The notes beneath the pieces were generated by a model. It saw nothing but the letters and a program-made list of their open reading frames with translations. It was not told the origin of the DNA and ran no database searches. The translations under genes and the position numbers were made by a program. A DNA stretch of 64,000 bases. Origin: Phycisphaera sp. Lineage in GTDB: Bacteria > Planctomycetota > Phycisphaerae > Phycisphaerales > SM1A02. Numbering within the stretch: the stretch's first letter is position 1; every line of letters begins with the position of its first letter. This document shows, piece after piece, positions 20,113-25,096 of this stretch. The stretch lies in contig WGMP01000002.1 of NCBI GenBank assembly GCA_016124975.1, forward strand, positions 1-64,000, read 5' to 3'.

Positions 20113-21186
<1,074 letters not shown>

Positions 21187-21233
21187 TCAACCGCCGCGGA
21201 AATGCCGCGGCGCGTGCCGCGTCGGCCGCCCGT

Positions 21234-21239
21234 TACACT
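21234..21239 (+). promoter_or_regulatory. -10-like element 7 nt before the channel gene
   Basis: TACACT is followed by CGCGCAA and the ATG at 21247. Its position decides the start: the alternative ATG at 21202 lies upstream of this element, inside the hairpin CGCCGCGG-AAATG-CCGCGGCG (about 21190-21210). Confidence 0.5.
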
Positions 21240-21246
21240 CGCGCAA

Positions 21247-22338
21247 ATGCCTCTCCCCGCGGTCCAACCGACCGCTCCAACCGCGGCTCCGCCCACCGAG
21301 GCGGCATCGGACCCGACCCTGCTGCGCGTCGGCGTCTTCGATCTTCCGCCGTTTTGCGAGCCGCTGGGAGACGGGCGCTGGGGCGGCGAGGGCGTGCGGC
21401 TTTTCGAAGACCTCGGCTCGCGTCTCGGCGTCTCGGTCGAGTACAGGGCGGCCGACGAGGCGACCATCCTGCGCGACCTCGCGGACGGCACGCTTGATGC
21501 ATGCGCATCGCCGATCGTGCCGTCGAGCGACCTCCTCGGGACCGTCGACTTCTCGCATCCCGTCGCGACGGTCGGACTGGGCGTCGCCGTGCGCGACGCG
21601 CAGGGCGTGCTCGACAGCCTCGGCACGGTGCTCCAGAGCCTGCTCGGCACGCCGCAGCGCCACCTCGTCGTGGTGATCGGGCTCTTCATCCTCATCTCGG
21701 CGTGCGGCGTGTGGCTTGCGGAGCGGCGCCACAACCCGCACTTCGATCAAGGCGCGACCAAGGGGATCGGCGCATCGCTCTGGTGGTCGGTCGTCACGCT
21801 GGCGACCGTCGGCTACGGCGACAAGGTTCCGCAGACGGTGACCGGCCGGCTTCTTGCGGCCGCATGGATGCTGGTCTCGCTCGTGCTCATCACGGTACTG
21901 ACCGCGACGATCGTCTCGGCGATCACGGTGGGCTCGCTCGCGACGCGCGCGATCCACTCGGCGAGCGACCTGCGCGGCATCCGCGTGGCCGCGCCGCGCG
22001 GAGGCGAGGCCGCGGACTGGCTTGCGGCGAACGACGTGCCGATCGTCGGCGCGGGCTCCGTCGAGGACGCCGTCGCGCTGCTTCGCGACGGCGCGGTGAA
22101 CGCGGTGGTCGCGCCGCAGGACGAACTCGCGATCGCCATCAGGAACGACCGCGGGTTCACGCTCTCGCCGGCACGGCTCAAGGACGACTACGCCTGCCTC
22201 GCCTTCCGCCGCGGGCTCGGCGAGGACTTCATGCGGCGCGTCGACGCCGCGCTTCTCGACGCGCGCGGCGCGACCGCGCGGGGCGACGGAACGGTCCGCG
22301 CGCTGCCGCGGGACGCAGCGCAGAAGGACGAGAGATGA
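21247..22338 (+). CDS. GluR0-like ligand-gated potassium channel
   Basis: Predicted inner-membrane ion channel of 363 aa with the layout of prokaryotic ionotropic glutamate receptors. Residues 25-130 form the first half of a periplasmic substrate-binding domain (LLRVGVFDLPPFCEP, ILRDLADGTLDACASPI). Then come TM1 (139-157), a re-entrant pore with the potassium filter TVGYGD (187-192), TM2 (203-228) and the second half of the binding domain (ASDLRGIRVAAPRGG through VVAPQDELAIAI, 240-345). It lacks the third transmembrane segment of animal receptors, as in Synechocystis GluR0. The ligand is probably an amino acid. The N-terminus is proline-rich and not a clear signal peptide. Confidence 0.85.
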   Translation: MPLPAVQPTAPTAAPPTEAASDPTLLRVGVFDLPPFCEPLGDGRWGGEGVRLFEDLGSRLGVSVEYRAADEATILRDLADGTLDACASPIVPSSDLLGTVDFSHPVATVGLGVAVRDAQGVLDSLGTVLQSLLGTPQRHLVVVIGLFILISACGVWLAERRHNPHFDQGATKGIGASLWWSVVTLATVGYGDKVPQTVTGRLLAAAWMLVSLVLITVLTATIVSAITVGSLATRAIHSASDLRGIRVAAPRGGEAADWLAANDVPIVGAGSVEDAVALLRDGAVNAVVAPQDELAIAIRNDRGFTLSPARLKDDYACLAFRRGLGEDFMRRVDAALLDARGATARGDGTVRALPRDAAQKDER

Positions 22339-22348
22339 TGGACCAGCG

Positions 22349-23206
22349 ATGATGGACCAACCGCCCATGACCAAGCCCTACCAGCCCCGCCCGATCGCCG
22401 CGATCCTCGGCGCGCCGCGCGCCATCGTCGCGATGGTGCATCTCCTGCCGCTGCCCGGCTCGCCGCGCGCAGCCCACACGCCGCGCGAGATCGCGGCGCA
22501 CGCGGTCGCGGAGGCGAAGGCGCTCGCGGCGGCGGGCTTCGACGCGATCCTTCTCGAGAACATGCACGACGCGCCGTATCTTCCGCGCGCGGTCGGCCCC
22601 GAGGTCGTGGCCGCCTTCACGCGCGCCGCATGCGAGGTGCGCGCCGCCGTGTCGGTGCCGCTCGGCGTGCAGGTCCTCGCGGGTGCGAACGAGGCGGCGC
22701 TCGCTGTCGCGGTCGCGGCGGAATGCGCGTTCATCCGCGCAGAGGGCTTCGTCTTCGCGTCCGTGGCCGACGAAGGGCTTCTCGCCGAGGCGTCCGCGGG
22801 GCCCCTGCTCCGGCTGCGTCGCGCGCTCGGCGCGGACGGCCTCGATGCGGGGAGGGTCGCGATCTTCTGCGACATCAAGAAGAAGCACTCGGCGCACGCG
22901 CTGACGGCGGACACCTCGCTCGCCGACCACGCGCACGCGGCCGAGTTCTTCGGCGCCGACGGCGTCGTCGTCACCGGAAACGCGACGGGCGTGGCCACGC
23001 CGATCTCCGATCTCTCGGCCGCGCGGAAGTCGTGTGCGCTGCCCGTCCTCGCGGGCAGCGGCGCGACGGCCTCGAGCGTGCGCGAGGTGCTCTCCGCGGC
23101 GGATGCCGTCATCGTCGGCAGCGACCTCAAGGTCGACGGCCGCTGGTGGAACCCACTCGATCCTGCGCGCGTCGAGCGCTTCGTGCGCGCGGCGCGGAAC
23201 GGCTGA
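22349..23206 (+). CDS. BtpA/SgcQ family protein
   Basis: TIM-barrel protein of 285 aa in the BtpA family, named for a cyanobacterial factor needed to stabilise photosystem I; elsewhere its role is unknown, though related proteins look like sugar or nucleotide-metabolism barrels. Family motifs are AIVAMVHLLPLPGSPRA, FDAILLENMHDAPYLP, LGVQVLAGANEAAL and GVVVTGNATGVATP. No photosynthesis genes are nearby. It starts 10 bases after the channel gene, within a plus-strand run, so they may share a transcript. The ATG at 22349 or 22367 could be used; a GATGATGGACCA duplication around 22335-22359 creates the choice. Confidence 0.82.
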   Translation: MMDQPPMTKPYQPRPIAAILGAPRAIVAMVHLLPLPGSPRAAHTPREIAAHAVAEAKALAAAGFDAILLENMHDAPYLPRAVGPEVVAAFTRAACEVRAAVSVPLGVQVLAGANEAALAVAVAAECAFIRAEGFVFASVADEGLLAEASAGPLLRLRRALGADGLDAGRVAIFCDIKKKHSAHALTADTSLADHAHAAEFFGADGVVVTGNATGVATPISDLSAARKSCALPVLAGSGATASSVREVLSAADAVIVGSDLKVDGRWWNPLDPARVERFVRAARNG

Positions 23207-23260
23207 CGCGCGGTGGTGGTAGACTCGCCGCGTCGCGCCGCGCGCGAGGAACGGATTCCC

Positions 23261-24130
23261 GTGCTCATCCATCTCAACGGTTCCCTCGTCGATGAAGCCG
23301 ACGCGCGCATCAGCGTGCTCGACCGCGGATTTCTCTTCGGCGACGGCGTCTACGAGCTCGTGCGCTTCTTCGCCGGCCACGGCGTCGGCATGGACGCGCA
23401 TGTGGCGCGCCTCGCGAAGAGCCTTGCGCTTGCACGGATCGAGGGCTTCGACGCGGGCGATGTTCCGACGCTCTGCGCGGAGCTCCTCGCGGCGAACGCG
23501 CTCGAGGACGCGGTCGTCTACCTGCAGGTGACGCGCGGTGCGGGGCAGACGCGCGCGCATGTGCCGCAGGAGCGGCTGCGCCCGACCGTGATGGCGATGG
23601 CGTCGGCCGCGGAGCCGCTCTCGGCGCTGGTCGCGCCGCAGGAGATCGCGGCGATCACCGCGGAAGACCTGCGCTGGCGCCGCTGCGAGATCAAGACGCT
23701 CTCGCTGATGGGCAACATCCTGCATCTCCTCGACGCAAGCGACGCGGGCGCGCAGGAGGCGATTCTCCACCGCGGCGGCATCGTCGGCGAGGGCGCCTAC
23801 TCGAACGTGGCGATCGTGTCGGGCGGTGTCCTCGCGACTCCGCCCGTAGACGCGGACCCGCCGATCCTCCACGGAACCGCGCGCATCGACCTTCTCGACG
23901 CGGCGCGCGACGCAGGCGTTCGCGCGGAAGTGCGGGCGATCACGCTCGACGAACTGCATCGAGCCGACGAGATCCTCATCACCTCGAGCAGGCGCCTTGC
24001 AAGCTCTGTGGTGAAGCTCGATGGCCGCCCCGTCGGCTGCGGGCACGCGGGGCCCGTTGCGCGTACCCTCTTCGCCGCGATGCGCGAGGCGATCGCGCAG
24101 CGACGGGTTCCGGCGTCGGCTGCGCGCTGA
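23261..24130 (+). CDS. Aminotransferase class IV (D-amino acid aminotransferase-like)
   Basis: PLP-dependent fold-type IV enzyme of 289 aa. Landmarks: LDRGFLFGDGVYE near the N-terminus, RWRRCEIKTLSLMGNIL with the PLP lysine at residue 145 (the same number as in Bacillus D-amino acid aminotransferase), EGAYSNVAIVSGGVL and DEILITSSRR. These fit D-alanine aminotransferase better than branched-chain aminotransferase or aminodeoxychorismate lyase, though the latter cannot be excluded. The GTG at 23261 is preferred, with GAGGA about 10 bases upstream and homology beginning right after; the frame is open 48 bases further back. TAGACT at 23219-23224 is a likely -10. Confidence 0.82.
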   Translation: MLIHLNGSLVDEADARISVLDRGFLFGDGVYELVRFFAGHGVGMDAHVARLAKSLALARIEGFDAGDVPTLCAELLAANALEDAVVYLQVTRGAGQTRAHVPQERLRPTVMAMASAAEPLSALVAPQEIAAITAEDLRWRRCEIKTLSLMGNILHLLDASDAGAQEAILHRGGIVGEGAYSNVAIVSGGVLATPPVDADPPILHGTARIDLLDAARDAGVRAEVRAITLDELHRADEILITSSRRLASSVVKLDGRPVGCGHAGPVARTLFAAMREAIAQRRVPASAAR

Positions 24131-24163: not shown

Positions 24164-25096
24164 ATGTCGATGCCTCCGCACCAGCCTCCCGTTCTCGCGA
24201 TCCAAGTCGGCAACACGCGGATCAAACTTGGACTCTTCAAGTCGGCCGATCCCGAGGAGGTTGTGTTCGTGCCGCGCGAGGACCTCGCGGGGGCGATCGA
24301 AGCGGCGGCCAGGCTCTTCGAGGCGATCGGCGCAGAGCCCGATGCCGCCGTGCTCGTGGCCGACGTCGACCGCACCACGGGCGACGCGCTGGTCGCTGCG
24401 CTGCGCGACCAGCTTGCGTGCGAGGTCTATCGCGTGCCGCAGGACATGCCCGTTCCGATCGGAACCTGCCTCGCACCTGGCGCGAAGCCCGGCGTCGACC
24501 GTCTGCTCAACGCGGCGGCCGCCTACGACCGCCTTCGGCAGGCGTGCATCGTGATCGACGCTGGAACCTGCATCACCGTCGACTTCATCGATGGCGAGGG
24601 CGTCTTTCACGGCGGCGCAATCGCGCCCGGCCTTCGCATGCAGCTGAAGGCGCTCCACGAGCACACCGCTGCGCTTCCCGCGATCGACTTCGCGGTGCCC
24701 GAGGGAACGGCGTGGGGCGCCGACACGCGCGAGGCGATGGTACGCGGCGTCTACCACGGCGCCCGCGGGCTCGCGTGGCGGCTCATCGAGAAGTACGCCG
24801 AGCAGTACGGTGGCTTTCCGATCGTCGTCGCGACGGGCGGCGATGCCGCCACGCTGTTCGGCGATGACGAACTGGTGAACCAGGTGGTGCCGGACCTCGT
24901 CCTTCGCGGCATGGCGATCGCGGCGCGTTGCGCGCTGGAGCCCGAGCGCGGCGACCGTGAGGAGCCTGGGTTCGGCGCGCTTCCCGAAGGAGGCGACGCA
25001 GAGGGCCCCGCCGCCCGCCCGAGGCCGGGCGCGCGCTCCCGCCTTGATGGCGTCGATCCAGGGTTCGCGCCGCGGTTTGAGGTCGACGAGGACTGA
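24164..25096 (+). CDS. coaX: Type III pantothenate kinase (altered first motif)
   Basis: CoaX phosphorylates pantothenate, the first step of coenzyme A synthesis, in the cytoplasm. Recognised from IVIDAGTCITVDFIDG (Asp132 region), PGVDRLLNAAAAY (Asp112, the catalytic position of the G-x-D-R motif), GGAIAPGLRMQLKAL and VVATGGDAATLF. The N-terminal motif is normally D-x-G-N-T; here it reads IQVGNTRIKLG, with Gln14 in place of the metal- or ATP-site Asp. The protein is 310 aa rather than the usual 250-265, with a Pro/Gly/Arg-rich tail after about residue 255 unlike the family. AGGA upstream supports the start. Confidence 0.85.
   Translation: MSMPPHQPPVLAIQVGNTRIKLGLFKSADPEEVVFVPREDLAGAIEAAARLFEAIGAEPDAAVLVADVDRTTGDALVAALRDQLACEVYRVPQDMPVPIGTCLAPGAKPGVDRLLNAAAAYDRLRQACIVIDAGTCITVDFIDGEGVFHGGAIAPGLRMQLKALHEHTAALPAIDFAVPEGTAWGADTREAMVRGVYHGARGLAWRLIEKYAEQYGGFPIVVATGGDAATLFGDDELVNQVVPDLVLRGMAIAARCALEPERGDREEPGFGALPEGGDAEGPAARPRPGARSRLDGVDPGFAPRFEVDED

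Follow-up and report, generated by a model that had tools for sequence, protein, structure and literature searches.

Can a protein that is built like a glutamate receptor still act as one when the residues that hold the ligand are missing? GluR0-type channels are used as proxies for the ancestral form of neuronal glutamate receptors, and the question is raised by a homologue from Phycisphaera sp., P0001 (locus L001 in our comparisons), a protein of 363 residues whose open reading frame (ORF), stop codon included, occupies positions 21247-22338 (+) of a 64,000-nucleotide stretch of contig WGMP01000002.1 (assembly GCA_016124975.1; hereafter the window). By architecture, as judged from its sequence and a structural model, P0001 is a homologue of the GluR0-type (Group 1) K+ channels. 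Our favoured reading, to which we would assign a probability of roughly 0.55, is that it is a GluR0-type K+ channel subunit, encoded at a locus defined by the genes for GAPDH and BtpA, that is no longer opened canonically by amino acids; the main doubt is whether this copy still works.

The architecture proposed in the first-pass annotation of the window, that is, a GluR0-like domain order with a K+ filter, is borne out by the ORF, its Pfam domains and TVGYGD at residues 187-192. From N- to C-terminus, P0001 consists of an S1 lobe, a first transmembrane helix (TM1), the TVGYGD pore, a second helix (TM2) and an S2 lobe, with Pfam matches above the gathering score to Ion_trans_2 (E 1.2e-14, residues 157-227), Lig_chan (E 1.9e-13, residues 142-243) and SBP_bac_3 (E 5.9e-09), the last of which has its ends at 27 and 288 and is split around the channel. 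The best sequence match in the PDB is the pore of KCNQ2 (E 8.7e-13, residues 143-216), and P0001 is the sole match within its own genome at E 0.001. These are the features of Group 1 prokaryotic ionotropic glutamate receptors (iGluRs), in which S1 and S2 halves flank two TM helices and a pore loop with a K+ filter, and not those of Group 2, which have a pore without the K+ signature.

The AlphaFold2 model, built from an 8-sequence alignment, has a mean predicted local distance difference test score (pLDDT) of 74, with ten-residue blocks of the lobes mostly at 75-90 and residues 1-19 below 50, and a predicted template modelling score (pTM) of 0.49. The first-pass annotation hinged on the two halves coming together as one binding domain, and in the model they do: residues 23-347, across the inserted channel, match amino-acid-binding proteins and two solved GluR0-type cores in VIA-align, namely 1ii5, the GluR0 ligand core (Z 21.4, 3.7 A, 207 aligned), and 2pyy (Z 21.7, 3.6 A, 199 aligned, residues 25-345). 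S1 and S2 are thus predicted to fold into one GluR0-like clamshell. The top Foldseek matches are chains of AMPA receptors covering the ligand-binding and transmembrane domains (best E 3.2e-18, ~360 columns), with whole-receptor TM-scores of 0.43-0.58 among the matches listed. Because of these TM-scores, the pTM and the eight-row alignment, we trust the clamshell of the model and not its lobe-to-pore arrangement.

The amino-acid site and the pore

In iGluRs, the backbone of the ligand is contacted by R485, which holds the alpha-carboxyl group, and by D705, which holds the alpha-amino group (excerpt of PMC12226733). We read the columns of this S1 Arg and S2 Asp (both in animal numbering) in an alignment of 90 rows, in which the GluR0 segments printed in Ger et al. 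(2010) place an R and a D in the same two columns. Dropped before the counts were second-identifier repeats of one gene (including L135, the same gene as L061), the plain K+ channel matches L023 and L025-L030, L098, which is cut before the S2 site, and six non-K+ loci (L022, L024, L095, L097, L115 and L116). Further matches to which no locus identifier was assigned were fetched in part, and none was picked or omitted by residue state.

P0001 has Leu96 and Pro290 at the two positions. Outside the clade found at its locus, both anchors are retained in all 43 K+-type relatives examined (30/30 in a first set and 13/13 from other planctomycete families). Within the clade (n = 53), seven members keep both, five Arg alone, eight Asp alone and 33 neither; Arg is replaced by Leu, Ser, Asn, Phe, Gln, Thr, Ala, Gly, His, Tyr or Glu, and Asp by Pro, Ser or Glu. 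The Pro is common to P0001, its nearest relatives L002 and L003, and the four members of genus g17; L002 and L003 keep the Arg. Two observations speak against a uniform loss: Glu, which could partly serve, stands at the Asp position in 10 members, and L005, L007, L039, L040, L050 and L085 have a neighbouring Arg. A lenient recount, which accepts Arg from -2 to +4 columns and either Asp or Glu, gives both in 10/53 and neither in 20/53. Mere misalignment of the S1 Arg was considered and rejected: the recount lifts the members with both only from seven to 10, and there is no Arg near Leu96. On the tree, the fewest changes are seven for Arg, five for Asp, three for both and two for the signal peptide, counts that are directionless and depend on a quickly built, long-branched tree, in which L021 falls beside genus g6.

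The pore tells a different story. GYGD is found in 54/54 locus members and TVGYGD in 51/54, and W179, W180, T184, P195 and G200 are invariant among them, which points to a constrained pore. With GYGD in every member and both anchors in 7/53, the pore has been held while the amino-acid site has not. The name glutamate-receptor-like, given in the first-pass annotation, therefore stands for the architecture but is not supported for the function: since Leu96 and Pro290 take the place of the conserved, ligand-holding Arg and Asp, we class P0001 as an architectural variant, which by sequence has probably ceased to be a glutamate receptor as usually understood and in which amino-acid gating is unlikely.

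Two groups of proteins met during the survey deserve a mention. In Halomicronema sp. CCY15110 (L037:1449-3641), a long N-terminal solute-binding domain, which by eye we take to be of the glycine-betaine ProX type, is fused ahead of a GluR0-type channel with intact Arg and Asp. The six non-K+ loci, all from genomes of the family, have pores such as TGRGR or TGKTSYKG and intact Arg and Asp, and resemble Group 2 of Ger et al.

The N-terminus of P0001

What we call a signal-peptide-like segment is a hydrophobic stretch before S1, scored as the mean Kyte-Doolittle value over 11 residues, which measures hydrophobicity and is not a signal-peptide predictor. The first-pass annotation pointed out a short, proline-rich N-terminus in place of a normal signal peptide. 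This is confirmed, and the N-terminus lacks a hydrophobic core, the peak value before the S1 lobe being 1.28 in P0001 and at least 1.85 in 83 of the 90 aligned rows (P0001 among the 90). Below 1.85 are, besides L001, only L020, L091 and L096, L037 (with its channel behind another fused domain), and L084 and L092, which were excluded from the signal-peptide count because their contigs begin within or near the gene. For a handful of rows, L061 and L081-L083 among them, the script found no start within 40 residues ahead of the stretch. A scan of all three frames, covering the 150 bases before the P0001 start and the 120 after it, found no encoded hydrophobic stretch, so a signal peptide behind the upstream ATG at 21202 (which would give 378 residues) or in another frame was rejected.

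The nearest orthologues (L002, L003, L004 and L038-L040) all keep a hydrophobic stretch behind the start codon, which makes L001 the sole member of its group of seven without one, and the stretch is present in 13/13 relatives from other planctomycete families. It is gone from L020, L091 and L096, that is, from every matching member of genus g6, and the tree calls for at least two losses. Since close orthologues and other-family relatives keep the stretch, the missing signal peptide of P0001 is, on sequence comparison, a real and derived loss within a clade that has one. The first-pass annotation called this absence unusual but did not account for it as a derived loss. Ger et al. (2010) had already reported two members each of Groups 1 and 2 without a signal peptide, so that it is not strictly defining for Group 1.

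The start codon is supported by a -10-like element in a position shared across same-genus members. TAnnnT lies 6-7 bases ahead of the candidate start in 11/11 same-genus locus members, as TACACT in 10/11 (counted with no shuffled control), and 4-9 bases ahead in 42/52 rows clade-wide; it is absent from all three signal-peptide-less g6 members. This suggests a leaderless mRNA for the channel gene. The divergent intergenic region (21136-21246, 111 bases) also carries TATCCT on the minus strand (21162-21167), on the GAPDH side, which is nearly identical in L002. On the reverse strand of the channel region, one frame is likewise without stops.

Locus and distribution

Of the 90 aligned rows, 54 have one or more genes of a shared block (GAPDH, channel, BtpA, aminotransferase and CoaX; Table 1) near the channel. 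In 52 of these 54 locus members, BtpA is found downstream, at most 400 bases away and on the same strand as the channel. Wherever GAPDH was seen (42 members), it is upstream and runs the opposite way, at a distance of at most 400 bases in 18 (own genus, g17 and g6) and of ~1-2 kb in 24. The three downstream neighbours are presumably BtpA, a class IV aminotransferase and CoaX. In a tree of 82 rows, 52 locus members are split from 30 relatives found elsewhere by a branch with 97% support in the Shimodaira-Hasegawa-like approximate likelihood ratio test (SH-aLRT); as judged from tree and gene order, a single clade is fixed at the GAPDH-BtpA locus, and P0001 would be vertically inherited there.

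Table 1. Features of the channel gene and its neighbours in the window
Feature	Positions	Strand	Basis
GAPDH (gap), divergent neighbour, 340-residue ORF	20113..21135	-	ORF; name by eye
-10-like TACACT, 7 bases before ATG	21234..21239	+	same-genus conservation; putative function
GluR0-type K+ channel homologue P0001	21247..22338	+	ORF, Pfam domains
Pro/Thr/Ala-rich N-terminus, residues 1-23, replacing the signal-peptide-like segment of relatives	21247..21315	+	sequence, three-frame scan, alignment
S1 lobe of clamshell, ~residues 24-118	21316..21600	+	SBP_bac_3, model, fold match; end approximate
Leu96 codon, position of the conserved alpha-carboxyl-binding Arg	21532..21534	+	alignment anchored on GluR0 S1 segment in Ger et al. 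(2010)
TM1, ~residues 135-158	21649..21720	+	model helix 135-159; Lig_chan
K+ selectivity filter TVGYGD, residues 187-192	21805..21822	+	sequence; locus-wide conservation
TM2, ~residues 202-231	21850..21939	+	model helix 198-232
S2 lobe of clamshell, ~residues 235-343	21949..22275	+	Pfam, model, fold match; ends approximate
Pro290 codon, position of the conserved alpha-amino-binding Asp	22114..22116	+	alignment columns
BtpA-family protein, downstream neighbour	22349..23206	+	52/54 locus members; name assumed
Pyridoxal phosphate-dependent class IV aminotransferase-like protein	23213..24130	+	seen in 50/54 locus members; name assumed
CoaX-like type III pantothenate kinase	24164..25096	+	seen in 16/54, many fetched stretches too short; name assumed

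Among 16 same-genus genomes, the channel was found in 11, and none was found between GAPDH and BtpA in four (G007, G008, G013 and G014). In the corresponding four loci (L119-L122) GAPDH directly adjoins BtpA, ~140-230 bases away. No BtpA match was found in G009 (78% complete) or G024, and two genomes of genus g44 (G079 and G233) have BtpA without channel or GAPDH within the fetched stretch.

Matches to P0001 occur in 73/181 genomes of the family (E 1e-20), 62/301 of the order (E 1e-12) and 27/294 of the phylum (E 1e-15), own genome included, counts that take in non-clade members and Group 2-like paralogues. The gene type, described as rare in the first-pass annotation, is not rare in this group, as the family count makes plain. 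At E 0.001, 42 of 61 related genomes (own included) match, many by the pore alone, and second order-level matches in G022, G136 and G244 are pore-only. In two genomes of other families, two GluR0-type matches lie side by side (G511:C1:2933989-2935966 and G641:C1:4479741-4481730).

Mode of working, rival readings and known systems

How might such a channel work? P0001 subunits presumably form a tetrameric K+ channel in the inner membrane, whose S1-S2 clamshell would face outward, with the inverted K+ pore set between the lobes. Canonical opening by glutamate or another amino acid would have been lost, and the likeliest modes would be (i) a K+ channel partly open by default, whose open probability is set by the clamshell, or (ii) gating by a small molecule other than an alpha-amino acid. 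We infer such leak or other-ligand gating of K+ by analogy with two precedents, the placozoan receptor AKDF1, which leaks without its Asp, and the insect ionotropic receptors (IRs). The job, as a default guess, would be K+ or turgor adjustment, since cyanobacterial GluR0 was shown to support the uptake of K+ by E. coli LB2003, and cells that lack it shrink more quickly upon KCl shock (excerpt of PMC13099474). Without a signal peptide, TM1 would have to act as the membrane signal, the acidic N-terminal lobe (~130 residues) being exported as an N-tail.

Several points weigh against our favoured reading. The idea of a leak is an analogy from an animal receptor, the pocket could be rebuilt for amino acids using other residues, and in GluE2-alpha receptors glutamate binding is predicted despite the lack of R485 (excerpt of PMC12226733). 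Without a signal peptide, P0001 may fail to reach the right topology. The channel is dispensable in the genus, since it is absent from the locus in 4/16 genomes. Finally, the ratio of non-synonymous to synonymous substitution rates (dN/dS) between L001 and L002 is 0.65 (S1 0.63, pore 0.45, S2 0.89), far above the 0.18-0.39 of the neighbouring genes, a pattern compatible with weak constraint and with a new role alike.

The rival that survives best, unlikely as we find it, is recent decay in this genome, in which loss of the signal peptide and the Arg would be first steps in a dispensable channel and the protein does nothing. It draws on the high L001/L002 ratio, especially in S2, on the clean absence of the gene from four same-genus genomes, in which GAPDH sits beside BtpA, and on L001 being alone in its group of seven without a signal peptide while L002 and L003 keep the Arg. 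The channel is the fastest-evolving gene of its locus: L001 and its nearest relative L002, of the same genus, are 93% identical in GAPDH, 83% in BtpA, 82% in CoaX, 71% in the aminotransferase and 47% in the channel. The L001/L003 ratio is 0.44 (0.14-0.20 for neighbouring genes), 18 close pairs of the clade, some of them non-independent, give 0.05-0.44, in line with our favoured reading, and four control pairs outside it 0.09-0.12, all by a simple method that is rough in G+C-rich DNA and with dS above 1 in several pairs. With each of five outgroups, L001 has slightly more unique changes than L002 (47/43 when L003 is the outgroup, then 43/35, 37/34, 42/40 and 43/37). This excess was considered as a sign of decay and is small only, and L002 evolves about as fast yet keeps its signal-peptide-like segment. 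Furthermore, the ORF is fully open, the filter and the promoter-like element are intact, and signal-peptide-less copies persist in three g6 species, with a dN/dS of 0.22 (pore 0.11) for the pair L020/L096; by this measure the g6 gene is under purifying selection.

An ordinary amino-acid-gated, GluR0-like receptor with a rebuilt pocket is more doubtful still. It would account for the domain order, the GluR0 fold match and top structural matches that are amino-acid-binding proteins, but has to explain why both anchors are replaced in P0001 when every K+-type relative examined outside the clade keeps them.

Less probable again is a flipped topology, with KcsA-like insertion and the clamshell as a cytoplasmic sensor of an internal metabolite. 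Opposite orientation is among the explanations that Ger et al. offered for members without a signal peptide, next to pseudogenes and another insertion route, and it would suit the absence of a signal-peptide-like segment from L001 and g6. It is not favoured by the charge rule. Lys and Arg are more numerous in the TM1-pore-TM2 loops than in the flanks, the pattern expected for the GluR0 orientation, in 4/4 members without a signal peptide (P0001 being weakest, with 5 versus 3), in 43/49 other locus members (three are reversed) and in 30/30 GluR0-like relatives outside the clade. For GluR0 itself, PhoA fusions, not all of them significant, give an orientation opposite to that of KcsA (excerpt of PMC13099474). 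An assembly error of the draft genome, suggested by the signal-peptide-like segments of the nearest relatives and by our finding no second genome of the species, is very improbable, as no single indel explains a loss with no hydrophobic stretch in three frames, the host contig spans 105 kb and three genomes of another genus, g6, show the loss as well.

Beyond P0001, we entertain, more tentatively than the favoured reading, the possibility that the whole GAPDH-BtpA clade is a prokaryotic counterpart of the insect IRs, in which the site has repeatedly been given up and the pore kept, the clamshell reading other molecules or setting a leak; two lineages would also have lost the signal peptide, so that the sensor lobe would be exported and oriented by a route new to the family. 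A clade that keeps its channel and repeatedly drops its amino-acid site offers natural experiments on how the clamshell contributes to gating and parallels, in bacteria, the switching of ligands seen in animals, while its signal-peptide-less members test how a GluR0-type receptor can attain its topology. A word of caution follows for annotation, where domain order alone is insufficient for calling such proteins glutamate receptors. Among the literature matches listed (titles and abstract starts, in a library without most subscription journals), there was no description of GluR0-type channels without an amino-acid site, and no planctomycete or Phycisphaer work on such channels was found under the same coverage.

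Among known systems, P0001 stands closest to GluR0 of Synechocystis PCC 6803 (Slr1257; 1ii5, 1iit and 1iiw) and the other Group 1 members, the 'putative glutamate-sensitive potassium channels' of Ger et al. (2010), with which it shares domain order, clamshell fold and charge pattern, and from which it differs by Leu and Pro in place of Arg and Asp, by the missing signal peptide and by its fixed GAPDH-BtpA locus. The Nostoc punctiforme GluR0 homologue (2pyy) has a similar clamshell and was, by its title, solved with bound L-glutamate, whereas P0001 lacks the anchoring pair. KQT/Kv and KcsA-type K+ channels share the pore, but have no clamshell and the opposite predicted orientation. With the insect IRs the likeness is one of mode of working only, these being eukaryotic receptors with no close kinship shown. 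They differ from P0001 in the pore and in an extra TM helix. IRs lack the glutamate-contacting residues and act as olfactory receptors (excerpt of PMC2924276). AKDF1, an animal receptor, has like P0001 lost the alpha-amino-binding Asp (D705), and without it carries a constitutive leak current that is blocked by ligands (excerpt of PMC12226733).
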